This document shows positions 7,364 through 63,968 of a stretch of 64,000 nt of DNA, piece after piece. This DNA is from Zymoseptoria tritici IPO323. Lineage: Eukaryota > Ascomycota > Dothideomycetes > Mycosphaerellales > Mycosphaerellaceae. A model generated the notes under the pieces. That model saw only the letters and a program-made list of their open reading frames with translations, had not been told where the DNA came from and made no database searches. Position 1 is the first letter of the stretch. Every line of letters begins with the position of its first letter. The stretch lies in contig NC_018211.1 of assembly GCF_000219625.1 (NCBI RefSeq), forward strand, positions 2,232,001 through 2,296,000, read 5' to 3'. A program made the translations under genes and the position numbers.

Positions 7364-8275
7364 CTAATCCTCGAAGACTCTCCACTCCTCCTTGTTGCTT
7401 TTACGAGTAGCGATGGACATGATCGCCGCCCACGCAAAAAAGCCGGTGCAGAATAAGAAAAAAGCAGTATGCGTCGCCATCTCGAACCAGGTCTTCGCTG
7501 CGTTGACTGGCTGCACTCTGCACGTCAATTGAAATTAGCCGACGCTCTCGTTTGGATGAAGCAAGATCAATGGGACTCACCGATTTGGCCACAGCCTCGA
7601 AGGCGGAAGCAGGATTCTCCATCTACCACACAGCGCACCCAGGCAAATCGCTGGGAACACGCAGTTGGTGGGCCCGCTCGCTTTGAGTCGCGAAGTCGTC
7701 AACATCAGCAGAGAGGAGATGATGAAGAGCGCGATCCCGATCAGGAAGTTCTTGTAGGCGCGAGCACCCTGCGCTGAGCCGTGGTGAATGACGGAGGTGG
7801 CGTAGAAGGAGGAGCAGGTGAATGCCATGACGAAGCAGTAGAGGAGGAGGCTCGCGTACACTGTATTCGCATCGATGTCGATGAGGGCGCAGACGTTGGC
7901 GACGCTGGTGAAGGAGGTGAAGTTCGTGAACAGCGCGCTGACCCCGCGGAATCCGTCCCGCCACCCTCTCGCACGATACGCAGACGCCACCGCATCAGCC
8001 GTCTTGTTCGCGATGGCATCCAGTCTGACAGTAGCTGACAACGCTTCCGTCACTTCCTCCGCGATGGTTTCGACTCCATTCATGGGTGGCCCCACAGGTT
8101 TCAGCGGGGATGTGAGGAGATCGAAGGCTTGTTTTCCGAGTTCGCGTTCGAGATCGTGAGCATAGTCCGTTGCGCTGGTGTCGAGTTCGAGGGTGGGGAG
8201 ATTGGCTAGGATGCGGCGCAGGGTCGTGGGGTGACGGGCGTGGAGGGCCGCCATGGTTTGTTCGAAGGTGGACAT
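7364..8275 (-). CDS. Multi-pass membrane protein of unknown function, about 282 aa
   Basis: The model is exon 1 7581-8275 and exon 2 7364-7517, with a 63-nt intron (donor GTGAGT, acceptor GTGCAG). The joined frame gives a C-terminal membrane helix (THTAFFLFCTGFFAWAAIM) and the tail KEEWRVFED. A second CAG 7 nt further on is an alternative acceptor. The N-terminal ~120 residues are soluble and helical. Hydrophobic segments lie at about 135-155, 170-190 and 200-212, plus the exon-2 helix. The last part of exon 1 (after residue ~210, RWRILLPPSRLWPNR) looks less like a conserved segment, so another splice form is possible there. No family is recognised; it is probably an organellar or plasma-membrane protein restricted to fungi. 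Confidence 0.6.
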
Positions 8276-8638
8276 GCTGGGCGGGTTGGGTCATGGGAGC
8301 GGAGATGGAGGTATTAGGGGAGAGGAATGGTAGAAAGTGTTCAGTGAAGGGTGGAAAGGTTCGTGACGAGCTGCTCATCCGTCTTAGTGGATTAAGTCGT
8401 GAAGTGAATGTATCGTCTTGGCGATCATGTTCTTTTGTTTGTTGATTTTCGAATTGATACTTCACTTGGTCTTCTGAGTTTCTGCATACCGTACTCGCCA
8501 CATTCTGTTCGACATCTTCGCGTTCTTGACATTGTTTCCTTTGGTTACCTCGAGTGGGTTCTTGTGTCGGCCGCTTTCGTGAGGACGATATAGAGTTTGA
8601 TACCTTGCGTCGATCTGACCACGCCTGGAATCGTGCCT
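8276..8638. other. Short unique spacer before the Tc1-type element
   Basis: About 360 bp of ordinary composition upstream of the membrane-protein start. It probably holds its promoter, with the transposon insertion at its far edge. No gene is supported. Confidence 0.4.
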
Positions 8639-8640
8639 TA

Positions 8641-8667
8641 GAACGCTTGCAATAATAGGTGGCTTAC
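8641..8667 (+). repeat. Left terminal inverted repeat of the Tc1-type element
   Basis: It starts GAACGCTTGCAATAATAGGT and is an exact inverse of 11997-12023. It is preceded by the TA target duplication. Confidence 0.95.
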
Positions 8668-8785
8668 CCCGCGGTCGGTTTTTAAAGCCTCCGAGAGACG
8701 CGCTTACTAAAAATCGCGTATAGAGTCCTCTATTGTGCTTTAAACCTTTAATATTGTTTATATTTATAGTATAGCTCTTTTTAAG

Positions 8786-10627
8786 GTGTTGTTGTCGCAC
8801 GGAGGTGTTGTTATACTATTTTTACTACCCCCTTCGAGTAGTCTACCGCCCTCGAGTCTACCGGTGCCGCCGACACCGCGTCGCTCTGCTCGTACCCTAG
8901 CTCTTACTGTCTATAGTAAGGAGGCTATTAAAGCTCTAAAGCCTTATCCGAGAGGCAGTCGCGCGGAGGGTGTTATAAGAGCTAAGGCACTATCGGTAGT
9001 ACTAGAAGAGCCCTCTTCGTATCCGACAATCGTAGAGACGGATTCTTAGGCCGAAGCGTTCGTAAACGTATAGCTCGCGCTACTCCGGAAGGATAAGGAT
9101 AAGGATAAGGATAAGGAGCCGCCGACTCCGGAGATATATAAGATACCGGTTATAGAAGGATAGGACACCTCTAACGACAGAGCGGTAGAAGAAGCTATAA
9201 CTAAGCGGTTAGTAAGAGAAGCTGTTAACCGCACGGCGCGTAATGCGATAATAAATAAGGTAGAGCGGTAGGCTTAGAAGGAAGAAGCGAAGAGGCTTAA
9301 TACTAAGTACGCTATACGGCGTATTATTAAAGCGGCGACGAAGAAACGGAGTCGTAAGGCGCCCTCGTCTAGCGTGCCGCTATCTAGCGCTTGTCGTCGT
9401 CGTATTAGTAGTGCTCGCGGTAGTGTTGTTACGTCCTTACTAGCGCCGCCGCCGCCGCGGTCTAATAGTATTATTGCTTACGAGCTATACGAATATCGTA
9501 TCGCACTATCGGTACGCTAAGGTAAGACGGTACTCTTTTAAGACACTTAATACAGCTCTTCTAGTAATAAGGACGAGCTTCTTACTAGCCCTATAGTAAA
9601 GGACTAGATAGCTACGTAGGTTATAGAGCTTCGAGTAGCTCTTAGTCGTATAAAGATCGCGGTGTCGTATTAAGGCCTACCGGTATACTCGTTCGTATAT
9701 ATAGTATAGCGTTTAGAAGAGAGTTAGAGTAGTATTATTAAGTAGCTCGACAAGTAGAATCGAGACAATAAGAAGGACATAAAAGTAGACGTTATTGTCG
9801 AAGTAGAGGTACTAAATGCTAGTACTATTACTACGCCTAGCCGTAGAACTACTACTACTATATAACTTAGTAAGATCGCTAAGGCTCGCGAGGGCCTTAT
9901 AGCCTCTAGTAATCGTTATAAGGATATTACAAGACGATAGCTATGCTCTAATAATAGCTATAAGAACTATAGCTATACATACTTCGTCGACGGTATAGAT
10001 AAGCCGGCTAACTACTTCCCTATCTATTAGACGTACCTTATAGTATAGGCTACTAGCATTACTAATAGCTCTCTTACTAATAAACATCCTAGTACTACTA
10101 TCTTCTAAGAGCTTCTTAAGAAGAAGAATAGAGGCCTTACTACTTAAGAAGACGGCAACATAAACGTAATAAGGCAGAGGCTACGGAGCGGCGCCGCTAG
10201 TAGTAGTAGTAGTAGCCTTACGTAGGATCTTTACTTCTACCTATATCTAGGGGCTACCTCTTACGGACTCGGAGGTATTATACTATTACTATCGGCATAG
10301 CCTGCCCCTACTAATTCTAGTAAACAACGCCGTCGTTTACCTTATAACGATATACCGAGCTCTTAGCCGGAGGTAGAAGACGAGATACCGGCGTTCTTCG
10401 AGTATTACCGACAACGTAAGGAGTAGAGCAGCGAGCTACGCCGTAGGGCACTTAGTCGCATCTAAGACCTTATAGAGGCGGAAGATTAGTCCGTCGTTAA
10501 CGTAAAGGGCATATTAATAGAGTTATAGATTAATAAAGGCCTGTTAGCCGGCTATAAGGTACGGTTAGAGCGTTTAGTAGATAAATTTAAGGAGGCTTAT
10601 CGTCGAGTAAGGAATATAGCGAGGTAA
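8786..10627 (+). pseudogene. RIP-broken 613-codon passenger frame in the Tc1-type element
   Basis: One plus-strand frame can be followed from 8786 to a TAA at 10625-10627. It is interrupted only by TAG or TAA codons, never TGA, at places where CAG, CAA or TGG is expected. The implied protein is basic and low-complexity at its N-terminus (PPTPRRSAR), has a KDKDKDK tract, a Pro-rich middle, a C-S-N-N...CxxY-like segment near codon 400 (LCSNNSYKNYSYTYFVDGID) that may once have been a Cys/His cluster, and a charged helical C-terminus (LERLVDKFKEAYRRVRNIAR). No transposase motif is visible. It may be an accessory transposition protein or a captured gene; the family is not recognised. Confidence 0.7.
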
Positions 10628-10849
10628 GCTAACTATAAACCTCTCCTTTAGCGTAGTGTACGATAACTATAACGTATCGTTACGCTTTTTAGACGAGCTT
10701 GTTCGTAAGGCTTAGGAGTATAAGCATATGTAATATAAATTAATTTAATAGTATTATTGTTGTAATATCGCACTAATCTAAAATCCTTAAATTCGCTAAT
10801 TTACTTTAAAATCTCGGTTATATATATGCGGGACTAGCCGTACGCGACG

Positions 10850-11800
10850 TACACAACGTTAGCGATATCCGCTCTTTTTAAAATGCTTTACCGCCGTTAC
10901 CTTAAACCTCTATTTACGTACCGTATATATTAAGAACGCCTCGAAGTTATCGAATGCCGCGACCTCTACCCTATACCTTTTAATCTACGCCTTTAATACG
11001 TTAAACGACTGCTCGATAGGATTATAATTAGGCGAATATAGCGGTAGGTATTCGAGGAAATAGCTAGCGTTCGATACTATAACCTTTATCTTATCCTTAT
11101 AGTAAATGCTAGTATTATCTATTATAATAATCGATCCCCTAGCTACCTAAGGAAGTATAATATACTCGAGCTATTAAAGGATATTATCCGCTTTAATCGC
11201 TCCTTACTTAAGTAGCGGCAGGTTAAGATAACTATTGATCGTTAGAGTAGGAACTAACGACTACCGCTCCGATCGCTTCGACGGTAACCGTATATCCGCC
11301 GGACGGCTAATAGGGCCCTATAAATACTTCTGTAGTCTATTCCTTTTATTTACTGCTAACTCGTCGATAAACACTAGTTTATCTACCTACTAATGTACTA
11401 CTTTTGCTCTCTAATAGCTCCTTAACTCCTTATTACGTTTACTAGCAATCCTCCGAGCGATCTTCCGGCTAAAACTATACTTTACGAGCACCCCCTATAT
11501 CGTTCGATCGTAGATAATATAGCCTATTATATCGAAGATAAACTATACTAATTTATCGAGGTAGGCATCCGGCTATTAATAGATATACTCTAACACCGTT
11601 AGTTCCTTAGCTCTTATTAATGTAGGTAGACGACCGCGCCGTACTAAAGGAGGTAGATAAGCGGTACCGAACAACTCGAAGGATAACCGTATACGAGCTA
11701 CTGTTCGCTAGCCGAGCTTATATCGTTTAGCAATAGTGTGGCCGCTTATGTCGGTGTATATAAAGGCCTTATAGAGCTAATTCTAAATATAGAGTAGTAG
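10850..11800 (-). pseudogene. DD34E (Tc1/mariner) transposase relic
   Basis: The minus-strand frame contains LVFIDELAVNKRNR (around 11,330-11,370), giving the first acidic residue. Then, at about 10,976-11,137, come IIIIDN and LPLYSPNYNPIEQSF, the family's DN and YSPxxNPIE signatures. Thirty-four residues separate the aspartate of DN from the glutamate of NPIE, which defines DD34E. A block GPISRPADIRLPSKRSER between the first and second acids matches the usual GWAPxGxxP...KRSERxS region. In-frame TAG/TAA codons make it inactive. The limits are approximate. Confidence 0.85.
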
Positions 11801-11996
11801 GCGTACGCCGCTACGTAGTTTTAGTAGTAGTAGATCCTACACGTGTTAAATAGTAGCAATAAACAACATAGATAAGCAACACCTTACTATGAACACGTTC
11901 AGAATGGATATAAGGACGATGTGCTGACAATGGACGTAATAGAGGACTCTACACGCGAATTAAGGTGAGGGCGTCTCTCGGAAATCCCCGACGCCA

Positions 11997-12023
11997 GTAA
12001 GCCACCTATTATTGCAAGCGTTC
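11997..12023 (-). repeat. Right terminal inverted repeat of the Tc1-type element
   Basis: Exact inverse of 8641-8667, followed by TA at 12024-12025. It ends about 100 bp before the sulfite-oxidase-type start codon. Confidence 0.95.
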
Positions 12024-12122
12024 TACCTCCTGCACGCCCATCATCCACAAAACATCTCCACGGTTCCAATTGCTCACGAAACTGTTCCCTATATCATCGC
12101 CGACATCAAGACAGCCAAGAAG

Positions 12123-13217
12123 ATGACAGGAGTCCCGGACAAACCGCTGAACAGGGAGCCCTCGCCACCAGAACTCATCTCGCAATTTTTCACGCCGTCT
12201 TCATCAGCATACGACCGCAATCATTCGGCAGTCCCGGAGCTTGACGCAAGCACACATGTTGTCAAAGTAGACGGCAACGTCAGTAAGACGCTATCACTCA
12301 GTGTGAAGGACTTGAAGGAGAATTTCACCCAGCATGAAGTCGTCTGTGCTCTTCAATGTGCTGGCAACCGCAGACACACCATGCGGACCAAGATCAAAGA
12401 AGTCAACGGACTGGATTGGTTCGATGGAGCTGTGATGAACTGTAAATGGCGAGGACCTCGTTTGCGAGATGTGCTCGAGCGGGCTGGAGTCGATGCAGAC
12501 TCGAGCAATTCCCACGTCGCCTTTGCTTCGTACCAAGTCGAATGTCAAGATGACACTTGGTATGGAGGAAGTATTTCCTTGAAACGAGCTCTGGACCCAG
12601 CATCCGAAGTCCTCGTCGCTCTCGAGATGAATGGGGAACCGCTTTCGCACGAGCATGGACATCCTGTGCGAATGATTGTTCCGGGCGTTGCTGGAGCGAG
12701 GTCGGTCAAGTGGCTGGACAGGATCACCGTGCAGTCGACTGAGAGTCAGAACCACTATCAGCTTTACGACTACAAGGTCCTGCCACCAGAAGCCACGGAC
12801 GCTGAAGAAGCGAAGAAGTTCTGGGATAGGACACCTGCTGTGCAGGACATGCCGGTCAATTCTATTGTTGGGTCGCCACCAAGCGAGTGTACTGTGACTC
12901 GAGATGCGGATGGTACCGTTGTCGTGACTGGGTACGCACTTCCCAGCGGCGATGACGGGCCGGTGGTGAAAGTCGAAGTGTCGGCAGATGGCGGCCACCA
13001 CTGGACGAAAGCAGTGGTTATTGATCATCCGGAGAGCTCCAAGTGGTCGTGGGCATTATGGAAAGCACGGGTGTCCGTCGAGGCTGGAAGCGACAAGACT
13101 ATTCTCAGCCGAGCTACAGATGCTGGCGGCAACATGCAGCCCGAGCAGTCGCAGTGGAATCTTCGCGGCGTTTGCTACAATGGCTATGGAGCTGCTGAGA
13201 GACTGAAGGTGTTGTGA
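12123..13217 (+). CDS. Sulfite-oxidase-type molybdopterin oxidoreductase
   Basis: Intronless, 364 aa from the ATG at 12123; the frame is open further upstream into the transposon end but without an ATG. Recognisable blocks are PLNREPSPPELISQFFTP, YDRNHSAVPELD, VVCALQCAGNRR with the molybdenum-ligand cysteine at residue 79, YGGSISLKRAL, ALEMNGEPLSHEHGHPVRM, VPGVAGARSVKWLDRI, and the C-terminal dimerisation domain (GYALPSGDDGPVVKVEVSAD, WSWALW, NMQPEQSQWNLRG). There is no cytochrome b5 domain and no clear mitochondrial or peroxisomal signal. The family oxidises sulfite to sulfate at a molybdenum cofactor; the exact substrate here is inferred. A Tc1-type element ends 99 bp upstream of the ATG, so the original promoter, and possibly an N-terminal extension, has been displaced. 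Confidence 0.85.
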   Translation: MTGVPDKPLNREPSPPELISQFFTPSSSAYDRNHSAVPELDASTHVVKVDGNVSKTLSLSVKDLKENFTQHEVVCALQCAGNRRHTMRTKIKEVNGLDWFDGAVMNCKWRGPRLRDVLERAGVDADSSNSHVAFASYQVECQDDTWYGGSISLKRALDPASEVLVALEMNGEPLSHEHGHPVRMIVPGVAGARSVKWLDRITVQSTESQNHYQLYDYKVLPPEATDAEEAKKFWDRTPAVQDMPVNSIVGSPPSECTVTRDADGTVVVTGYALPSGDDGPVVKVEVSADGGHHWTKAVVIDHPESSKWSWALWKARVSVEAGSDKTILSRATDAGGNMQPEQSQWNLRGVCYNGYGAAERLKVL

Positions 13218-15444
13218 TTTAGACCGAGGGTGCTATTGACGCTGGCTCGGCGTTCAATGTGCATGCACAATTCCTGCGCGACCTGTTCCGGAACAACCAC
13301 GAAATCTAGGACGGGAAAACCGGTGCTAGCTTGTTCGGCAACCATTGTGGACTGCAGGGACATTGCCATGTCGTCTTTGTTCTGAGAGGTTAGCCCAATC
13401 AGACCTCCAAGAACTCCTACCTGGATCACGAGAGCCCATGTGGATTCGGCATGCACACGCGACAGAGGTCCAGCACATCGGAGATGCCGACACTGCGACA
13501 CTCCTCCGGCAGAACTTCACCTTGATCACTTCTCTGTCGGAAGTGCGTGAAGACGGCGCAAGAACGAGTATTTGTCGGTCTGGGACGCAGACAATCGAGG
13601 CATCGACCGGCCACTCTGGGAGTCCTTACACCGTTGCAATGACCTGCGCCGGCATCCACTCCGTAAACGGGAGGCAATGTTGCACTGTAGTCTGGACTCC
13701 GACCTTCGACGACCGTAGGGCAGAGGAAGTATGTTGGCCGTGCTGAGTGCTGTCTGGCGCTCCTGACTCTGCTGCCACGGCCACACCACTTACCACAGCA
13801 CACCACCACTCGCTTCTACATCGCATCGGAATCCATTCGCTTTCCAATGTAAACAGTCGCTACGACCAGCCAATACATGGCCTCGGCTCCATCAAATCAT
13901 CGATCTCAACATGCTGGTCAGCGTTATATTGCCATACCGCATGCAAGTCTCGCAACGCTATCTCGACTTGACGAAACAAAAGTTGCAGATAAACAGAACT
14001 CATTGACTGGACAATGATGTACTGGCTTCCGGTCTCGAAGTGGCTCTGCGCTGGCTTGCCAACTCACTGGTCTCAAACGGAAAAATCTGGACGAGCAATA
14101 GCGAGGTCCTGCTTGCCGTCTCCGTGTACGAGGACTAGCATGCCTTTCAAGCAAGTACAATTTGGGCCGAACATTGTCATAGCATTGCGATCGTGAAGAG
14201 GGGAGTAGGCGAGGTTCGCTACCCAAACTGGGGAAGGCCCGAAGACGTGGTTGTTGATATTCAAGATCTGGCAAAAATGGCCAGTCTGTTCGTTTGGTCG
14301 CCATACGCCATGTATCCGGCTGAATCTGGGTATTAATTGGTGTGTTTTTGATGGTTCTGTATCTTGCTAAGTAATACAAACGAGGTACAGCTTCCTTCAA
14401 TCTGCTCGTCGCTAGAGATGGCGTTCATGAAGGATGTCGACTCGGCTGTAGAATGAAACGACCACGGAGACATACGACGATGCACCAGTGTTTCCCTGTC
14501 AAAGTGAGACAGGTTGAAGAAGCTCGATCTGCGTTGTGGCGCAAGTGACGCTCCAAATCGAACTTGGCGATTTCGTCCCGCACGGATTCCCAAGCCCATG
14601 CAAAATTTAAGACAAACTTGCGCTCGATCACTTTCCTCCTCACTCTACCACCATCATTCGTGTAACCACTCGTCTATCGTGCAATAGGTGTCAAGGCAGA
14701 CTATCTGGACGTTTTCAATCAAGACCTCAGGACGTCTACTCCTGCCACCGCGGTCCCAGATCTACCATTCAGCTCAGGCAGTTGCGCCTGACGAAAAGAA
14801 ACAAACTGGCAGGACTTCACATTTCTAGTCCTCATCCACGCCTGGCTCTCTGATCACAGAGCCTGATATACCTACGCGGACCGAGATCTCACTTCCCCAT
14901 TCCATGCGTCCAGAAGATCTCCTGCGGTTCCTGTCTGTGCCAAAGAAGTCAGTCGGGCAGTTGTCACTTTGTATGAAACCAAGCTGCATACTGACCGCGA
15001 ACACTCCAGGCCACGATAACACGAGCACTTGCTTCACTCGAAACCAAAATACATATACGAATACGCTACGAACGACTCGCTCGTCTTCTCGGCCCATCTC
15101 TCAATTGACCCGATACTTCCGCCGGGTATCGGAGACCTATCGATCGACCTACTGAAGTCGGCAACATTCCGCCACGCAAGAGCTCTTTTATTCCCTTGAG
15201 CGCTCGACCTCCTTAACGTCCATCTCGGTCGTTCCACGAAACCCCACGCATCACCGCTTGTTGCTGGCGTAAGCCAGCCTCCAAGAATCAAAGAAGGAGT
15301 GTGCCTTCTCTCTCAAGCGGACCTTGAAAAGTTGCTTGTGCAGCAGACAGCTACACAACTCATTCCCCAACAGAAAGAGCTTGTTCTCGAGACGAAGGTC
15401 GAAAGTTCGAGGATCAGTCGCTCCGAGTAGTCAAGAGCTTGGAG
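13218..15444. other. Intergenic region and long leader of the AdoMet decarboxylase gene
   Basis: About 2.2 kb. Minus-strand frames at 13184-13501 and 14073-14264 are short and show no convincing splice partners. The last ~800 bp probably includes the 5' leader of the AdoMet decarboxylase mRNA. An 83-codon ATG-initiated plus-strand frame at 14904-15155 could be an upstream ORF, which is a known means of polyamine control in this gene family, but transcription of the segment is unproven. Confidence 0.35.
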
Positions 15445-17016
15445 ATGGTCAACATCGACATTCCGCAACATTACACCGGTTCGCCGTCTTCCTTGAGTGG
15501 TACGCCACACTTGACGATCAATCGAGACATAACAGCTCTCGATCTTGACTCCAGCAATGCCTTTGAGGGGCCCGAGAAGCTGCTAGAAGTATGGTTCAGC
15601 GCGTCGGAGAAGACGCTGCCAGCATCTGCTTCTCCGCTCGGCTTGAAGGCTGTCTCGCAGGACTCATGGAAGGAGATGCTTGACTTGGTGAACTGCAAAG
15701 TCCTGTCGGTAATCGAATCTCGCAATGTGGACGCGTACTTGCTGTCTGAATCCAGCATGTTTGTGTTCCCGCACAAGTTGGTGTTGAAGACCTGCGGCAC
15801 CACGACCCTGCTCTGTGGGCTTCCCCGCATGCTCGAGATTGCTGCGCTCGAAGGTGGCTTTCCGCACGTCAAGACGAATCTTCTTGATGGCACTTCTGCG
15901 GCGGCCACGCCTCACCGCGTGTTCTACAGCCGCAAGAACTTTCTCTTTCCAACACAGCAGCGTGGTCCGCATCGCAGCTGGCGAGAGGAGGTGCGGTACT
16001 TGGACAAAATGTTTCTCGGAGGTAGTGCGTACATGATTGGGAAGATGAACGGAGAGCATTGGTATCTGTACATCACTGGACCGAACACCCAGCTCACCCC
16101 TCCTGCCACTCCGGAGGACGACCATTTCCAGACCCCGACCCAGTACGTCGCACTCCCTGAGCAGGTCAAAGAGATCTCCGACAAGCCAGAGGACGAAACA
16201 TTGGAGATACTCATGACCGATCTGGAGGAGTCCAACGCTCGACAATTCTATCTCGAAGATGCCAGTGAGATCGCTCAGGACAATGTCCGCCGCGCTCACC
16301 TCGCCCGCAAGGATGCAATTCATCATCTTGGCGTGATTCCCGAAGGCAACGGTTCCTCGACTAGCATCTCGGGAAACACCTTGGTCAGTGGGTGTAGCAG
16401 CCAAGCCGACGATTCCAACTTTGATGTCTTCGCGCAGACCTCCACCGATCACTCCGGCTCCAGCTCCGACACCGAGGACGAACCACTTACCTTTGGCGAG
16501 GAGCTCAGCACCGAAGGCCATACCCTTGGTACAGTCGTTACGGAATCTTGCGGCCTTGCAGACCTCTATCCGACGTCCAAGTACCCCGACGCTCGCATTG
16601 ACTCCTACCTCTTCACGCCCTGCGGCTACTCTGCCAACGGCGTTGTGCCCATGCCGGGTGACGGCGAATCCACTAGCTACTGGACTGTGCACGTCACTCC
16701 GGAACCACAGTGCTCCTACGCCAGTTTCGAGACGAATGTGCCGACTCGTCACACTGGCCGCCAGACTGTGGACGTGGTGCAGCAGGTCGTGGGCATCTTC
16801 AAGCCGGGACGGTTCAGTGTCACGCTGTTCGAAGCCAAAGAGGGCGATGAGCAGGGCTATGCGAAGAAGGACAAGCGGATGGATTTCGTGGAGGGGTATC
16901 GTCGTGTCGATCGCATCGTTCATGATCTGGAGGGGTATGAGTTGGTCTTTAGGTACTTTGAGAGGGAGGACTGGAAGAGCGGCGTCGCGCCTAGGATTGG
17001 CGAGAGCAGCCCTTAG
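15445..17016 (+). CDS. SPE2: S-adenosylmethionine decarboxylase proenzyme
   Basis: Intronless, 523 aa. The ATG at 15445 is the first in frame. The substrate-binding block FEGPEKLLEVWF is at 40-51. The self-processing site LSESSMF gives Glu102-Ser103, where cleavage turns Ser103 into the pyruvoyl cofactor. TCGTTTLL holds the catalytic cysteine (Cys117). CGYSANGV and WTVHVTPEPQCSYASFETN hold the processing Ser and His. All key residues are present. The enzyme makes decarboxylated AdoMet, the aminopropyl donor for spermidine and spermine synthesis. The protein is longer than the ~330-400 aa of animals and yeast because of an acidic, Ser-rich, low-complexity insertion at about 215-365, as is common in filamentous fungi. 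Confidence 0.95.
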   Translation: MVNIDIPQHYTGSPSSLSGTPHLTINRDITALDLDSSNAFEGPEKLLEVWFSASEKTLPASASPLGLKAVSQDSWKEMLDLVNCKVLSVIESRNVDAYLLSESSMFVFPHKLVLKTCGTTTLLCGLPRMLEIAALEGGFPHVKTNLLDGTSAAATPHRVFYSRKNFLFPTQQRGPHRSWREEVRYLDKMFLGGSAYMIGKMNGEHWYLYITGPNTQLTPPATPEDDHFQTPTQYVALPEQVKEISDKPEDETLEILMTDLEESNARQFYLEDASEIAQDNVRRAHLARKDAIHHLGVIPEGNGSSTSISGNTLVSGCSSQADDSNFDVFAQTSTDHSGSSSDTEDEPLTFGEELSTEGHTLGTVVTESCGLADLYPTSKYPDARIDSYLFTPCGYSANGVVPMPGDGESTSYWTVHVTPEPQCSYASFETNVPTRHTGRQTVDVVQQVVGIFKPGRFSVTLFEAKEGDEQGYAKKDKRMDFVEGYRRVDRIVHDLEGYELVFRYFEREDWKSGVAPRIGESSP

Positions 17017-17944: not shown

Positions 17945-20900
17945 TCAAGCAGGAACGCCAATGTATTTGTAGAAGCCGTCTTTATTGGGCGCCCGGCCCA
18001 AGAAGGCTTCAAGCGAGTCATTGGGATCTCTCGCGCCACCCGGTTGAAGGATCTCCGTGCGGTACCTCCAGCCGGTCTCGCTGCTGAACGGGTCCGAGGC
18101 GAATGCGGTGTAGAAGACATCCTCGGCGTAGACCAAAGCCCACTGGTATCCGTAGTAGGCGCCAGTGTAGATCGGCCAGACGATGTGCTGGAATGTCGTC
18201 TCGCCCCATCCCCAGTCGAACCTCTTGAGAATGTCAGATGGATCGGGTGTTTCGGTGATGTTGCGGATGAGTGTGTTCCAGGTTACAGACACGTCCGTCG
18301 TGTTGGCGGCCTCGAGACTGGTGTATCCGTGCAAAGTCTGGTCGTAGGTGGCTAGGAAAACTTGCGAGATTGTGTCGCCTCCCACGTAGGCCTTTTGGGA
18401 CTCCTTGATTCGTTCAAATAGATCCTGGGGGTAGGTCACCGGCGGAAGTGGGGCGCTGGCGTCGGCACCTGAGTCCTTCCGCCAAGCGGCAGCGGCCTCC
18501 GCCGAGAACGAGGACCAATGGGTGCTAATGCGCTCGTAGACCTCATAGATGTTCCCATAGTTCATCTCCATGAACTGCGATGGAAACTCAATAAAATCGA
18601 TTGGCACTCCGCCGGGACCGTGTGTTCGAGCGTAGGTAGTCCTCGACAAGAGTTGGTGGTGGCAATGTCCGAGTTCATGGAAGAGAGCCGTGGATTCGGT
18701 GATGAAAGAGGGGATTTTGCTTTCGTCGTCCGACTTGTCGTTGTACAAGAAGGCTCCCGCAGTTGGGTATTGAAGGCAACCATCCTCCTTGACGAATCCG
18801 GGTGATATGGGCGCCATGAAGGAGCCGCCGCCAGCTTTTGTGACCGGGCGCTTGAACAGGTCAAGGTAAAGGTAGCCTCGGAAGTGATCGGTGACCTCGG
18901 GATGTGCGTCGATGTAAGCTTGGCTGTCGTACACAGCGTAGAGCCAGACGTCAGGGTGCCAAACCAAATCAGTGCCATTCCCTGTAGGAGACAGCGCATC
19001 GGCGTCTTGTCCTTGAATACGGTCGTAGCGAGTACCATAGATCTCGCCGTAAAACTCGAGGGTAGCAGGGACGGTCACGTTGGCAGGGAACCAGTATTGG
19101 AACGTGTTAGCTCCCAGATCTCCGAACTTTTCCGCGTCTCGAATATTGGCGTAGTAATTGCTGCGACGATGTCAGTCGACAAGCCCAGGTACGACAAGCA
19201 TTGCCTGCGTGTTCTGAGCGTCATGGAAACAACACTTACAAGTCCCAAGTGTAGAGAATGTCCTCGTCGCCGATCGGAGTCACGATCGTCCCGTTCTGCT
19301 TTTTCACATCGTTGAGATCCTTCAGTTCTGCATCGGCCTTGACTTGGACGTGGGTGGTGACGTCGGCCAGGAAATCTTCCACTGCTTGCTTTGTCTTGGC
19401 CATGTTTCCGTCAATCCTGCATCAATGCAAATTAGATCACTCTCTTTGCGCAGGTATAGCAAATGAGGAACTTACGCATAATCATCCCAAGACTCGTATC
19501 CGGCCAGCTGTGCAACCTGCACTCGCAATTGAATGGCCTCCTGGATAAGGGCAATGTTCTCTTGATATTGGCGTCGATATTCGAAAAGTTCCGTGTACCT
19601 GGTCGTCTCATTCACGGCGTAGGTCACGATGTCTGCACCGTTGTCCAGGACAGAGACTTGCAACTTCCCAGCGTTCTCCCCGGTGCCGTTCTTCAGCTGA
19701 GAGATAGTCTCGGGGTCCACGCCCTCAAGCTCGTCAGCTGTAAAGTACAAAAATGTTGATGTACCATTGCCGAGGATGGCCTTGAACTGGTTGTAGATCT
19801 CATCGAGGCGTCTGTTGGCAGCCTGGAACTGGTCGCGCTGGGCGCCCGCTGGAATGTTGAGGCCTGAGCATAAAAGGATGGACTGGTTAGGCGACATGAG
19901 GAGGAATCAGTAGAACCGGAGCTAGCGTACCTGCTTCAGCGAACAACCCCCAAACCTTTGTGAGGACGATCTGCTCCTCGACGCTCAGTGACCCATCGGT
20001 TGCGTTGCCCGTGGCCTGGTAAAGGTGGTCCACCAATGCCTAACATGAAGAGGTGCAAGGTCAGCGATGGCTCGTGTGCAAAACATGCAAGAGACATACA
20101 AAGAAAGCCTCGTTGGTAAACAGATCATCGCTGGCATTATCGTAGATGGTCTCTCCACTGTTGACTTCGTCGTTGACCTCGGATGGCTTGCTGCTAAACT
20201 CGTAGATGCTGAGAGGGCTTATAGCAGTATAGGCCAGATTCTGAGCGCGGAGATATGGCAGGATGGTATTATTGAACGTTGCCTCGGCTGGTGATCCGAC
20301 AGTGTCCAAAATATTTTGAACGGTGGTGTTGAAAAGCTTGATGTAGGTCTCGTACGTTTGGTTGATTGATGCGACAGTGTCATTCCACACAATCGGGAGC
20401 TGTGGAGGTCGCTGAATGCCGGACGGCAGAGTGCCGGTGTCTTGACGAGCCTCGTGCTGAATAGTCGGCGGTTTGACTTGAGGAACAGCGGGAATCGGCA
20501 CCGTCGGGACTTTGGGAACGCCTGGCACAGACGGAAGTCCGCGAGCCTCGTGGTGCTCAACCTTTGGCTCGACCGTTGGCGGTTTGACTTGAGGAACAGC
20601 GGGAATCGGCACCGTCGGGACTTTGGGAACGCCTGGCACAGCCGGAAGCCCGCGAGCCTCGTGCCCAATCTTTTTCCCGACCTTTTTATCGACGTTTTTT
20701 CCGACCTTTTTCTCGACCTTTGGGATAGCGGGAATCGGCACCTTCGGAACTTTGGGAACGCCTGGCACAGAGGGAAGGCCGCGAGCCTTGTGGACGGCTC
20801 CTCCTCCAGGCAGGCCAGGGAGAGAGGAGAGGCCAGGCAAAGAGGAGAGGCCAGGAAGAGAGGAAAGGCCAGGGAGTGAGGGAGCGCCTGCTGCAGGAGC

Positions 20901-21530
20901 TCCAGTCGCAGGAAGTGGTGGAGCTGGGAGTTGCGGCTCAGCCTCTCGCTTAGCCTTGTGGATGGCTCCTCCTCCAGGCAGTCCAGGCAGAGAGGAGAGG
21001 CCAGGCAGAGAGGAGAGACCAGGAAGAGAGGACAGACCAGGAAGAGAGGAAAGACCAGGAAGGGAGGGAGCGCCTGCTGCAGGGGCTCCGGTCGCAGGCA
21101 GCGAGGGAGCTCCGGCTGCAGGCACTCCGGGGACTGGCAGAGCTGGACGTTGAGGCTCAGCCTCTCGCTTAGCCTTATGGATGGCTCCTCCTCCAGGCAG
21201 TCCAGGCAGCGAGGAGAGGCCAGGCAGAGAGGAGAGACCAGGAAGAGAGGACAGGCCAGGAAGAGAGGAAAGACCAGGAAGGGAGGGAGCGCCTGCTGCA
21301 GGAGCTCCAGTCGCAGGCAGCGAGGGAGCTCCGGCTGCAGGCACTCCGGGGACTGGCAGAGCTGGAAGTTGAGGCGCATCCTCTCGCTTTTGAAATCCGA
21401 ACTCAGATCCGGCATTCAACGAAGCCTTCCGCTCGATCGGATCCACATAGTGACGAGTGTCGGTCAGCTTCTGATTTGGCGTGATGCAGTATCCCAGCTG
21501 GACCAGAGAAGAGAGGAGGAGGAACTTCAT
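17945..21530 (-). CDS. Secreted M3 metallopeptidase fused to a kexin-punctuated Pro/Gly repeat precursor
   Basis: Five exons: 20100-21530, 19931-20039, 19476-19863, 19240-19416 and 17945-19160 (1,106 aa). All four introns (59-79 nt) have GT-AG ends and join the frame. MKFLLLSSLVQLGYC is a signal peptide (ATG at 21530; an upstream in-frame ATG is less likely). Residues 50-250 are three repeats built of SSLPGL units, the first two ending in HKAKR and the third in HKAR; a KR also precedes the first repeat, and two repeats begin EAEP. Residues 251-362 are three shorter GLPxVPGVPKVP repeats ending in HEAR. From about 380 the protein is an M3 oligopeptidase (thimet/MepB type) with N-glycosylation sites, HELGH zinc-binding helix at 863-867 and third ligand in EFPSQFMEMNYG. 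M3 enzymes cut short peptides and are usually cytosolic or mitochondrial, so secretion and the N-terminal precursor are both unusual. Confidence 0.85.
20445..21383 (-). repeat. Coding tandem repeats in the peptidase N-terminus
   Basis: Three long units (73, 73 and 55 codons) and three short units (43, 37 and 32 codons) lie in tandem. Within the long units, an 18-nt sub-repeat encoding SSLPGL occurs three to four times. The first two long units are almost identical at DNA level (about 20,945-21,163 and 21,164-21,383), which points to recent duplication or gene conversion. RIP has not hit them. Confidence 0.9.
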
Positions 21531-27638: not shown

Positions 27639-29647
27639 TCACGCTCCAAATCCGAACTGCTCCGCATACCCAGCAGGCATCGGCACACCACCGATCCCCA
27701 TCTCCTGCTGACTATTAACAACCAGCTCCGGGTTCAAGAACATGTCCCACTCAAACGGCAGATCCAATTGTCCCCAGTCCAGATTCGGCGCTTCGCTCAA
27801 CGTGCTACTCGGGCCGGCAGATGGGTGATCGATGAACGGTGGCGTCGCGGGAACGGCATTCAAAGCTTCCAATTCCTTTGTCTTCCGTTTTCTCGCCATG
27901 GCGATCAGCGCCGTAGCCTGATTGTATGCTTCGCGCACCATGTGCGTGTCATAAGTCTGGGCAATGGTATGCATCAAATCCATAACGGGCTGGATATTCG
28001 CTAGGCTTCGTGGCGTTCCAACGGCGATACAGACGCAGAGGAATTGGAAGGGGGTGCAGATGACGTTCCACCAGGGAGTGCGGGAGGTGAAAAGAGCCTT
28101 GGAAGCGATGAGCGCGGATTTGCCGACTGAGATGACGGTATCGGCGCGGTCTTTGGCGTCGGTAAGAGACATGAGCCATAAGCGGCGGTAAATGGCGAAA
28201 GCAAGGTCGGCTTTGAGGAGTGATATGAAGGACGATTCAGTGTGCAAAGCTTCAATGCGAGTCAATGCTGCGCCGAGCGCAGCCGGCGGATCTGGTTCGC
28301 GCTCGCGGTCAACGAAGTCGTTTGGGAGGAGGTCCGCGAGCTCGACGAATTGGTGCGCGTGAGAACCAGTTTCCGGAGCGAACTTCTTGGTCGTCACGAC
28401 ATCGTAATTGACGCGAGTGCGGCCGTATTCAAACGAGAGGAGGATATTGAGGGCGCGGGCGATCCAGAACAGACGTCGGCGCTGCTTAGCCAGTTTGTGG
28501 TCGGCATTGACTGATGGATAGACGACAGCGATGGTCTGCATTTCTTTGTGCAGGCCGGAGGCTTCAACTTGATGCATTGTGATGCAAGAAGTTATCCAAC
28601 CGGCGTGCGGGCGGGAAGTCAGGCGGAGGTAGATCGTGCGGAGGATCCAGCCTGTAACGTGGTTGGGCATGGGCGAGTAGCACACGCTCGTTTCAATCAG
28701 GACTCGCTGTGCTTCCGTAGCAAAGGTCGACTCTTTGGGATGTGGGTTCGGCGAGAAGAACGAACCCAATGCTGCGACTCCTAACGCAACAGCATCGATT
28801 CCTTTCCAGCCGTACGGATCCTTGAATCGTGCTGCAGCCTGCTCCATGAACTCGACCTCGTCGGGAATGCCAAATTCAGGCTTGACGACTTTGAAATACA
28901 CGCTCGCGAGACTTTGCATATCGTTCCATGTCATGAGATTTGTGATATCAACCGGCGGCTCCTTCGGTTCCTGTCGAATGCCCAGATGCCAGGCGAAAGA
29001 GTGCAATCTTGGAACATTCTCCGCTTCGAGGTCCATTCCCAGAATCCTTGGAAATGCAATCGCCGAGTTGGCTTTGACGAAACGAGTCTTAATCGGGTCC
29101 AGGATACCTCGGTGATGGAATCTCGCTCCCGGTGCGGTCAGAGGATGTGCTTGTAGTTGGATGATGCTCGGTGTTGTCGAGCCGATAGGTTGCGGTGGTG
29201 GAGGTTCCGCTGCAACGTCGGCGACGTGGGCCAACGAGGGCCGCTTCGAACTGCTGGCATACTCGCATTTGTACTCGTAGCGGACACATGTCGCACATGG
29301 AAGTCGGCCGTCGCTGTATCACTGAGTGTAAGCAGGAAGGCGGGGTGTTCAGGTTGCTTCGAGGACGATAGCGGACTTGATCGAGATCTTGAGACGATAA
29401 TGTGAACAGATGCTGCGTTATCCTGAATGACGGATGTCTCAAGAAGACGACCCATCATCCCACCTTGAAACCATAGAAAAAAGAATCAAACATACCACTT
29501 CCGCTTCCTCGTCCTGCACGGCGTACAAGCAGCCTTTGATCGTTGCCGTCCACCACCAACCGGCTGTCCGCCGGTCACATCATCATGCTCGTCGTCGTCC
29601 GGACTCAACGACCGCTTCGTGCCATTTCGGTGTTCTGTAGCCGCCAT
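27639..29647 (-). CDS. Zn2Cys6 transcription factor with fungal-specific regulatory domain
   Basis: Exons are 29496-29647 and 27639-29313 (608 aa). The 182-nt intron (GTATGT to GATACAG) splits the zinc cluster and the frame joins as TG|C. The cluster is C-x2-C-x6-C-x5-C-x2-C-x6-C at residues 41-67 (CTPCRTRKRKC, then DGRLPCATCVRYEYKC), exactly the Gal4-type binuclear zinc pattern. The large C-terminal region has middle-homology features (for example GWKGIDAVALGVAALGSFFS, LAKQRRRLFWIARALNILLS and the motif FEYGRTRVNYDV). Such proteins bind CGG-containing sites and regulate metabolic genes; the target here is unknown. It is divergent from the 128-aa gene, with 196 bp between the starts. Confidence 0.85.
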
Positions 29648-60739: not shown

Positions 60740-63700
60740 ACGGATTTTTTATATTAATCTTAACTAATCTATCGAGGCTATAGAGTCTACCTTAGACGTC
60801 GCGGTTAAGCAGAAAGCCGACCTTCTACTAGTCTAGGAACTGTAGACTATAGAAGACCCGATAATAGGCTACAAAGAGACGAGATCTATTACACACCGGG
60901 ATTACAACTAGCTATTCCTAATAACTACGGATTCGACGATCCGGCTAAGAATAATACTATATATTAGCACAAGACTTAACGTTAATATCTCTCCTATTTT
61001 ATTAGACGACAGCGACATACTTTCCTTTGTTATTTTAGACAAGAAGGGCAATAAGATCTAGATAGTTAATCTCTATAACGAGAAAGACCTTCGGGATACC
61101 GAGAACCCGCAAAACTGACGAACAACAGAGAGAAGCCTCTACTCTCTACGCAATACGTTCCTTCTAAACACTCTACTAGTAGGAGACTTTAACCTTAGAT
61201 ACCCGTCCTAGGATCCGAGGGGAAAGGATACTACTAGTGCCCGCGAATTTATAGAGTAGATAGAAGACTAGGGCTTTACTCTATGTAATACGATAGGTGT
61301 CGGGACCTTCTATAGGCCGTACCTAGACGCAGAGTCGGTCCTAGACCTTACGTTTACAAGAGGATCCTTATCTACGAAAGAAATCGACTAGAGAACGATT
61401 CTAACAGGCTTAGACTATAAGGCTATATCTATAGACCTTATTAGTACGCAAGATCGAGCCTAACAGAAGAAAGTAGTTCTAGATATAGCTTCCGCGGATT
61501 AGGAACTGTTTACAGATCTCCTAATAAGCAAGGCGACGTCTATTAACTATACGAACTCCCTCGACGACATCGTAGACTCCTTTACCTCGTGTATTACTAA
61601 ATTGATGCGGGGAGCAATCCTAGAAAAAGTAGTATACGCCTACGCAAAACCTTAGTAGAATAGAGAGCTACGCACGCTACGCTGCATAATGTCTAGAACA
61701 TATAGACAGACCTTTACCTACGGACGTACGCTAACGCTAGACGAGAAAGAGGCGTATACGAAAGCGAGAAACGAGTACTTCTAAGCTATTAAAACAGCTA
61801 AGAAGAACTACTAGAACGCTTTCCTTAAAAAAGAAGACTCGAAATCTATCTTTAAAGCTATATCCTATACTAGGAATAGCAGCCGAAGACAGATACCTAC
61901 GATAAACAACGAAGATTCTTTCGAGGGGAAATGTAAGGCCTTCTCCGAAGCCTTATTTCCGCGCCCTCCTGCCGAGGAACCTCTGCCTAGCCGTTGGGAA
62001 GCGTATACAGCCGGGGATTGGGGCTGGACTACGCTAACCGAAGAGGAACTCGCTGCCGCCTGTAGTACGAAGATAGTAAAAGGAAAAACGCCGGGCCCAG
62101 ACGGCATTACGCAAGCTATTATTAGTAAAGCGTACGGCGCCATTCCTATTACCTTTCTACGTATATACAGTAGGCTACTCGACGAAGGACACCACCCCCG
62201 ATGCTGGAAAGTTGCGACAGGCGCAGTTCTAGCAAAGCCGGGAAAACCAGACTATTCGGTCCCTAAGGCCTACCGAGTTATCTCTCTCCTAAACTGTCTC
62301 GGCAAGATTAGCGAGAGAATACTCGCAAAACGCCTAGGGATTATCGCAGAGACGAAGCCCCTTCTACACGACTCGCAGTTAGGAGGGCGAAAGAAGAAAT
62401 CGGCTATCGATACGGTGCTTCTCTTAACGAACGAAATCGAGGAGAATCGAAGAAAGAAAAAGAAGACTTCGGTTATCTTCCTCGACGTAAGAGGAGCATA
62501 CGACCACGTTGCAAAGAACCGACTGTTAAGAATAATGATCCAGTTAAGGCTTCCGCACAGCCTTATACGTTGGGTTCAGTCGTTTATGAGCAATAGACGC
62601 CTACGAATAGCATTCGACGGACAGATACAGGAATTCCAGGACGTAGAGATCGGCGTTCCGCAAGGCAGCCCGATGTCTCCTATCCTCTTTCTTATCTATA
62701 CGCGCGACATATTCTTCTCGCTACAAGGAGTTACTCCTAGTTCCTACGTCGACGACATTAGACTATCTACCTCGTCTACGTCCCTTAAGAAGAACTCTAA
62801 GGTACTAGAACGTGAGGCAAGAAGGCTAATAGACCTAGGAAAGAAGAACTCGATTGCTTTCGACCTAGCAAAGACAGACCTAGTACACTTCTCGAAAGGG
62901 AAAGGGTCCGATTGCCCGGTAATTCTTCCAAACGGCGATATTGTTCGCCCGGCAAAGAAAGCGATAAGGTGGCTTGGGATTTGGCTAGACGCCGGTCTTA
63001 CCTTTAAGGAGCACATTGCAATAAGATCGGCTCAAGCACAAGCAGCATTCTATCGATTAGAAAGACTAGCAAATACCGAACGCGGTCTGTCTTCTATATC
63101 GTTAAGAAAGATCTACCTAGCCTGCGTTACTACAATAGCAGACTACGGGGCCCCGGTTTGGTGGCGGTCGAAAAAGAGCATAAAACCTCTAGTATCTCTA
63201 CAAAGTAAAGCTTGTAGGAAGATCCTAGGCGTTTTCCGTACCGCCCCAAACGTCCCGTCCGAAGTAGAGTCAAATCTCTTCCCCCCGGATCTACGCCTAG
63301 AGAGACAGTCAATTTTATACTCTCTACGCGCAGCAAAGCTACCCGAAAACCACCCCGTAAGACTCGCTATCCAAAGCGCGCCTTCGGATACGCGAGAAGT
63401 CCAACACGAGGACTCGAGAGAGATACTTCCGCAAAAACGACAGAGAACACAGATACAACTACTCTGTTATCGACTCCGACAATACAAGCATTTCGTAGAA
63501 CACGAGAGGGCTAACTACGCAAAAGACGATCTCTTTAGCGTCTGGAAAACCCGATACGAAATAGCAAGACAACGGGAGATCAATAAGGTACCTAGGAATA
63601 CAAATAGCTACCTTAGTCGATTTCCATGGAGCTCGCCAGGAAAACATAGAATAGGAGGAAGACGTGCTTTAACTAGTGCCTTCTATACTATCCTATTAGG

Positions 63701-63968
63701 ACACGGATACCTAAAGTCCTATCTCTATCGCTTTGGACACGCAACGACGCCAGACTGCCCTTGCGGACGACGAGAAACAGCAGAACACCTCGTATGTAGC
63801 TGCCCTATCTACGATGTATTTAGGCCACTACCGCTACGACAAGCACAATCTCTGCTAGAAATAGTAGAAGATAAGGAACTCCGGAAACACCTTACTACCT
63901 TTCTCTCGGATACAAAGATTGCTTCTAGGTCCTGGCACCTAGCAAGAGGCGAAGACGAGACCGTCTAG
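60740..63968 (+). pseudogene. LINE copy B ORF2: endonuclease plus reverse transcriptase, 5' half RIP-broken
   Basis: The apurinic-type endonuclease region (ADLLLVQE-like, LLVGDFNLRYPS) contains many TAG codons. From 61815 to the TAG at 63966-63968 the frame is fully open (718 codons). It encodes GKTPGPDGIT, VISLLNCLGKISERI, VIFLDVRGAYDHV (RT motif A), GVPQGSPMSPILFLIYTRDI, YVDDIRLS (catalytic aspartates intact) and a C-terminal CPCGRRETAEHLVCSCP, the CCHC-like knuckle typical of Tad/I-clade elements. No RNase H domain was seen. If transcribed, only an RT fragment could be made from an internal start such as the ATG-led frame at 62415. Confidence 0.85.

Follow-up and report, generated by a model that had tools for sequence, protein, structure and literature searches.

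How does a peptidase gene come to carry a tandem repeat array with the processing sites of a peptide precursor, and does that array serve as a precursor, as a spacer or as part of the enzyme's own maturation? The question is raised by a minus-strand gene of the wheat pathogen Zymoseptoria tritici (Mycosphaerella graminicola) IPO323, whose genome comprises 39,686,251 bases on 21 chromosomes (Goodwin et al. 2011, PMC3111534). The gene lies on chromosome 8 within the 64,000 nucleotides that were analysed (2232001-2296000, hereafter the window), and it joins a signal-peptide-like start, six repeat units and an M3 metallopeptidase. The original prediction, made from the DNA letters, described the repeats as a pheromone-precursor-like domain. 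We favour the explanation that the array arose by expansion of the pro-region of a secreted M3 peptidase and that it is probably cleavable at several sites, and we place the probability of this reading at about 0.6; our confidence estimates are rough, and the readings considered below overlap in part.

From an ATG at 21530 to a TGA at 17945, five joined exons hold a single open frame of 1106 residues (Table 1). The coordinates of the original prediction, to which we add the strand, and its claim of one spliced gene are thus borne out, as are the six repeats at residues 50-362, the positions of the KR and AR sites and the HELGH motif at residue 863. It had assigned the joining of repeats to peptidase to the intron at 20040-20099, which proved incorrect: this intron lies within M3-homologous sequence, and exon 1 alone (residues 1-477) contains the repeats together with the first ~115 residues of the enzyme. 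No splice donor of the GTRNGY type occurs in exon 1, and no methionine is present between residues 1 and 648 of the protein. Because the exon that spans the repeats and the beginning of the enzyme has neither of these features, a separate in-frame start for the peptidase, which had been named as an outcome that would speak against the fusion, and excision of the repeats as a consensus intron are both unlikely. The join between repeats and enzyme is encoded in the gene itself.

The enzyme is a complete member of peptidase family M3. Its match to Pfam PF01432 covers residues 610-1102 (E 7.3e-76; 256.8 bits as compared to a cut-off of 27; profile positions 26-455 of 457), its nearest relatives in the PDB, at E 2e-46 to 2e-44, are thimet oligopeptidase and neurolysin, and both HELGH and the downstream glutamate in FIEFPSQ align with thimet oligopeptidase, which gives the HEXXH motif and downstream Glu within an M3 domain that define the family. 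Similarity at the N-terminal side of the enzyme begins near residue 370 (SGIQRPPQLP...NDTV, common to paralogues). The enzyme part contains 15 N-glycosylation sequons as compared to 4.8 expected, a number reached by none of 1000 shuffles, and the corresponding protein of Zymoseptoria brevis contains 16, again reached in 0 of 1000; no such enrichment is seen in a Candida PRD1, whose count was reached by 444 of 1000 shuffles, or in an Aspergillus relative (945 of 1000). The sequon excess and the hydrophobic start, which was judged by eye along with its likeness to paralogues, argue for passage through the secretory pathway, and the enzyme is probably secreted.

The six repeat units fall into two types, with units 1-3 of a PSLPGLSS type (73, 73 and 55 residues) and units 4-6 of a GLPSVPGVP type (43, 37 and 32 residues); Tandem Repeats Finder reports a period of 219 bases at 20921-21389 with 95% matches. 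KR is found at residues 48, 121 and 194 and AR at residues 249, 292, 329 and 361, and KR is followed by EAEP at two sites and by EDAP at one. Within residues 50-362 the arrangement of arginine is non-random, as six of the seven arginines are the final residue of a unit and the seventh (Arg128) precedes a proline, in an array that also holds 20 lysines. At the DNA level, all six unit ends are the same sequence apart from third-base changes: units 3-6 end in CAC(A/G)AGGCTCG(C/T), and units 1-2 in CA(C/T)AAGGCT with an extra AAG codon before CGA, such that a KR end is an HxAR end plus one codon. The encoded sequence of units 1-3 bears the mark of constraint, with 16 synonymous and 3 nonsynonymous differences between units 2 and 3 (ratio of nonsynonymous to synonymous rates, dN/dS, 0.07; Fisher p 7e-7) and 15 and 4, respectively, between units 1 and 3 (p 1e-5).

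To place the array within its family, we compared the gene with the other M3 genes of the genome. The expansion of M3 in Z. tritici is already known, the family being among the most striking peptidase expansions of this fungus (Goodwin et al. 2011, PMC3111534), and a PF01432 search returned 38 matches, which we grouped into 18 loci; the enzyme part is 29-50% identical to M3 sequences at 14 of these and 27-32% identical at three more. N-termini were inspected at loci L022-L031 and in protein P0017, which contains the L033 motif strip. The secreted group used for comparison consists of eight resolved members (L022-L027, L030 and P0017); L028 and L029 were unresolved, L031 is a more remote member, and L032, L034 and L035 were left out. 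None of the nine readable N-termini among the 11 inspected (the eight plus L031) contains repeats. All eight resolved members have hydrophobic starts, five of them with QLG as in the QLGYC of the window gene, and in six an arginine stands immediately before Asp or Gln just upstream of a SGIQRPPQ-type start (TRRD, SRRD, TPRD, TPRD, IARD and HSRQ). The corresponding place in the window gene reads HEAR followed by QDTGTLPSGIQRPPQ. With M3-family-like sequence flanking it on both sides, the array looks like an expanded pro-segment, and the comparison suggests that the pro-segment of an existing secreted peptidase was enlarged by tandem duplication. Had a second gene been joined to the enzyme, it would likely have brought a signal peptide of its own, and the paralogue comparison gave no sign of a pheromone precursor fused in this way. 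One paralogue of the secreted group, L028 (G000:C6:1786500-1793500), has NILGH where HELGH would stand and shows in-frame stops when read in six frames, and is possibly a decayed or inactive copy.

A separate repeat gene that could have donated the array was sought by searching the first 404 residues against the same genome, and none was found. Among the best candidates, 12 other places matched at E up to 1, of which seven matched the enzyme side alone (query residues 353-404) and five (L015 and L018-L021) matched repeat residues. In tblastn alignments the best of these five, L018, showed low-complexity Pro/Ser/Thr similarity (33% identity, E 4e-8), L015 gave a short match, L020 and L021 weak ones and L019 none; no KR or HxAR unit ends occur in the alignments of the five loci.

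The original prediction had suggested looking for the same fusion in related species, and one was found. Our protein searches were word-based and scored the 8000 candidates with the most shared words; with the enzyme part as query they returned 15 matches at E 1e-3, and a further M3 search gave seven at E 1e-20. The closest is a partial Z. brevis protein of 872 residues, 82% identical over the enzyme, which begins inside the repeats and shows the same join. Its visible unit ends are HKAR, HGDR and HEAR, so that the arginine is kept at all three, and no other arginine is present in the visible array; the visible number of units differs from that of Z. tritici. The next matches are Z. tritici paralogues and one further protein (41-49% identity), and no close secreted M3 relative outside Zymoseptoria appeared among the organism-labelled matches. 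A FastTree phylogeny unites the Z. brevis protein with the window gene (support 1.0), adjoining the secreted paralogues, its deeper order being loose as it was built from pasted partial tblastn pieces. When the N-terminal 380 residues were used as query, only the Z. brevis protein and one low-complexity VPGVP-type protein with PF02181, which we take to be the formin family, were recovered. Repeats were thus found only in the window gene and the Z. brevis record; that no second repeat-bearing protein was found outside Zymoseptoria is weak evidence, since the repeat words are common and 8000 candidates were scored.

The array could instead be a pheromone- or KEP-type (Kex2-processed repeat protein) polyprotein, whose functional repeat peptides would be released by kexin and shortened at their ends by a dipeptidyl aminopeptidase, with the peptidase acting with or on them. 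In favour of this explanation are the KR and AR unit ends, the apparent secretion-type start, the conserved arginines and sequence of units 1-3, and the EAEP or EDAP that follows KR at three unit starts. The XA/XP dipeptides that follow KR in alpha-pheromone precursors are present at the two KR-EAEP sites, and KR-EDAP fits only at its second dipeptide (AP); KREADP/KREAEP is also used by a KEP-like open reading frame (ORF) of the same genome. The KREAEP motif alone is nevertheless uninformative, as its DNA pattern occurs at four places genome-wide, two of them within the window gene, as compared to three in a reversed control. Under the published rule, a KEP has three or more similar repeats set off by Kex2 sites (KR, RR or KK, with RK too in one survey; Le Marquer 2019; Umemura 2020; PMC6339444, PMC7329392), whereas our simplified version of the test, based on KR sites only, counts two similar KR-KR fragments of 73 residues each in the window gene, and six units are obtained only when HxAR ends are counted too. 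The same count gave 4, 9 and 7 in three KEP-like ORFs elsewhere in the genome, and no further ORF passed in the window or at loci L022-L035. Released alpha-pheromone peptides are 9-24 residues long (PMC6339444), whereas the units here measure 32-73 residues and are of two different types. Some M3 genes do lie close to UstYa matches, at 2 of the 18 loci within 5 kb (P 0.010) and the same two within 10 kb (P 0.032), and both places also hold a KEP-like ORF; the P values were computed post hoc after the 61 UstYa matches had been merged by hand into 40 places, and the link to repeat-precursor clusters is a weak hint in support of a peptide role. However, one of the two M3 genes is an apparent C-terminal fragment and the other lacks a signal peptide by eye, and none of the 61 listed UstYa matches is on chromosome 8, which led us to reject a UstYa-type (dikaritin) cluster at the window gene. 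The signal-peptide region and the enzyme boundary moreover resemble those of plain M3 paralogues. The pheromone-precursor reading is partly supported: the likeness extends to the unit ends, the KR-EAEP arrangement and the apparent secretion-type start, and falls away in repeat count, unit size and the HxAR ends, and a polyprotein of this type seems unlikely to us.

Proline-, glycine- and alanine-rich sequences are typical of disordered spacers, and the array could be an uncut linker of this kind, a Pro-rich arm that ties the enzyme to the wall or matrix of the hypha and in which the basic sites are incidental. Its composition (Pro 68, Gly 42, Ala 40 and Leu 38 of 313 residues), the differing number of units in the two species and the four of seven basic sites that are not KR would all suit a spacer. 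A spacer would have no need, however, for arginines nearly confined to unit ends in Z. tritici and at every visible end in Z. brevis, nor for a last site that agrees with the ends of the paralogues' pro-segments, and we consider this explanation improbable. It is hardly credible that the gene model is an artefact, with repeats and peptidase on separate transcripts or the repeats untranslated. An artefact would account for the lack of a deposited Z. tritici model in the protein search, but it is at odds with the single exon free of internal methionines and splice donors, with the synonymous excess between units and with the same join predicted in Z. brevis.

Several observations weigh against the expanded pro-region that we prefer. 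At four of the seven boundaries, among them the one that adjoins the enzyme, the site is HxAR and not KR/RR or LxxR. The preferred Kex2 residues have been named (PMC8528282), and alanine at P2 is outside them; cutting at these ends may thus need another P1-Arg protease, and cutting by kexin there is uncertain. Two of the eight secreted paralogues (L027 and L030) lack the boundary arginine, and the boundaries were matched by eye. As the units are duplicates of one another, their repeated Arg ends are not independent events. Taken by themselves, neither units 1-2 (p 0.075) nor units 5-6 (p 0.22) show significant constraint, and the codon register of the inner 18-base repeats was partly the aligner's choice. 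Five paralogues (P0002-P0006) have a weaker sequon excess (8 to 13 sequons, reached by 8 to 115 of 1000 shuffles), one Z. brevis boundary is HGDR, and KR sites are not seen in the second species because its record is truncated. Finally, no deposited copy of the window protein was found for Z. tritici, the closest named entries being the paralogues at 41-49% identity.

Notwithstanding these points, the placement of six of seven arginines at unit ends and their retention at the three visible ends in Z. brevis make cleavage at every boundary plausible. So too is the processing chemistry, as profile searches of the genome matched one kexin-type P_proprotein and two DPPIV_N sequences. In the proposed mechanism, the short ancestral pro-segment of a secreted, probably N-glycosylated M3 oligopeptidase would have been duplicated in tandem to give a Pro/Gly/Ala-rich pro-region of six units, with the same arginine processing site at the end of each. 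During passage through the Golgi, a kexin-type protease, possibly with other P1-Arg proteases at HxAR, would cut between HEAR and QD and at the remaining boundaries, giving free enzyme and several Pro-rich fragments of 32-73 residues, and the EAEP ends might be trimmed by a dipeptidyl aminopeptidase. It is doubtful, although conceivable, that one pro-protein would in this manner deliver, in fixed ratio, a secreted oligopeptidase and Pro-rich peptides with a job of their own (as surface coat, signal or competing substrate), their ends copied from the cleavage site of the pro-segment.

The repeat-precursor-like ORFs encountered elsewhere in the genome are of interest in their own right. On chromosome 6, an ORF of 293 residues (L038:697-1575; G000:C6:1553596-1554474) contains nine KR, its KREADP/KREAEP units alternate with KRAAGP-type units, and it has the look of a precursor of repeat peptides. 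At G000:C7:1315724-1320820 (L041:4225-9321), an M3 gene, which is the one without a visible signal peptide, a UstYa match (1319064-1319589, plus strand) and a KEP-like ORF (L041:8866-9321, minus strand) with 10 KR and near-identical KRYEGDVEWKDKT units lie within ~5 kb. At G000:C6:722061-725030 (L043:6062-9031), a KEP-like ORF with DPEAQRGGIMDYIKR units (L043:6062-6457, minus strand), a UstYa match and the apparent C-terminal M3 fragment stand side by side.

The neighbours of the window gene, drawn from a scan of 20 ORFs of the window, are ordinary genes (Table 1). The window from 36001 to 64000 is AT-rich, with a G+C fraction of 0.37-0.45 as compared to 0.53-0.57 across most of the remainder, holds a reverse transcriptase ORF at 61815-63965 and looks like repeat-derived sequence. 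A shorter dip in G+C (0.437) occurs at 8001-12000, with no listed ORF of at least 140 residues between 8664 and 11963.

Table 1. Features of the M3 peptidase gene and its neighbours (window coordinates; a slash marks the proposed cut)
Feature	Position	Strand	Basis
Whole gene (5 exons, 1106 residues), encoding the M3 peptidase and its proposed pro-region of repeats	17945-21530	-	open spliced frame, ATG to TGA; GT..AG introns
Exons 1-5	21530-20100, 20039-19931, 19863-19476, 19416-19240, 19160-17945	-	joined open frame
Four introns	20099-20040, 19930-19864, 19475-19417, 19239-19161	-	GT..AG ends in 4 of 4
Intron 1 (GTATGT..TAG), within M3-homologous sequence	20040-20099	-	sequence
Signal-peptide-like start, residues 1-15 (MKFLLLSSLVQLGYC), exact end guessed	21486-21530	-	read by eye; hydrophobic starts alike in paralogues
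Leader from putative signal peptide to first unit, residues 16-49, ending FQKR	21384-21485	-	spliced sequence
Unit 1, residues 50-122, EDAP after KR, ending HKAKR	21165-21383	-	sequence
Unit 2, residues 123-195, EAEP after KR, ending HKAKR	20946-21164	-	sequence
Unit 3, residues 196-250, EAEP after KR, ending HKAR	20781-20945	-	sequence; dN/dS 0.07 against unit 2
Unit 4, residues 251-293, GLPSVPGVP type, ending HEAR	20652-20780	-	sequence
Unit 5, residues 294-330, ending HEAR	20541-20651	-	sequence
Unit 6, residues 331-362, ending HEAR; proposed pro-region/enzyme boundary HEAR/QDTGTLPSG	20445-20540	-	matched by eye with paralogue R/D and R/Q boundaries
M3 metallopeptidase, residues 363-1106, introns included	17948-20444	-	Pfam PF01432; PDB relatives
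Zinc-binding HELGH, residues 863-867	18665-18679	-	aligned with HEXGH of relatives
S-adenosylmethionine decarboxylase	15328-17013	+	
Molybdopterin oxidoreductase	11964-13214	+	
Fungal transcription factor	27642-29318	-	
Cytochrome P450	34654-35832	-	

The protein can be set beside several known systems. It shares its catalytic domain, HEXGH motif and downstream glutamate with the M3 oligopeptidases (thimet oligopeptidase, neurolysin and yeast Prd1), to which it adds a secretion-type start, a sequon excess and an N-terminal repeat array, and it shares genome and family with the expanded M3 peptidases of Z. tritici, among whose readable N-termini it alone has repeats. One secreted M3 protein of Z. 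tritici has been listed (JGI 38371, 725 residues; do Amaral et al. 2012, PMC3517617), and a study of 39 secreted peptidases does not name M3 in the sections covered (Krishnan et al. 2018, PMC5784588). KEPs and alpha-pheromone precursors are alike in their signal-peptide-like start, tandem units and KR followed by EAEP or EDAP, whereas the window gene has two similar KR-KR fragments, long units, HxAR at the other ends and an attached enzyme. The combination of repeats with a folded domain is not new as such, as in Hum3 of Ustilago maydis a hydrophobin domain follows 17 repeats of 31-36 residues that carry putative Kex2 sites (PMC4617103); in the window gene the folded part is an enzyme. Kex2-processed pro-domain (K2PP) effectors of fungal plant pathogens, such as SnTox3, are likewise secreted folded proteins behind an N-terminal pro-region, whose end, just ahead of the mature part, is KR/RR or LxxR (PMC8528282). 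The window protein differs in its six tandem units and in a last site that reads HEAR/QD, with its KR sites further upstream; its pro-region may work like a K2PP pro-domain all the same, and we claim no effector role. A limited search of the open-access literature brought up no description of an M3 peptidase, or of any other enzyme, with a Kex2-type repeat array; the supplementary tables of the KEP surveys may list the gene. The layout is unusual, and it looks closer to an enlarged enzyme pro-region than to a true pheromone precursor.

If this explanation is true, the gene would illustrate a route from an ordinary enzyme pro-segment to a repeat peptide precursor, through copying of the segment and its cleavage site together. 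In fungal pathogens, repeat precursors and removable pro-domains have been treated as two separate classes (PMC8528282), and the window gene would sit between them, in a form that is directly testable. It also singles out one member of the M3 family, whose expansion in this major wheat pathogen is on record (PMC3111534).

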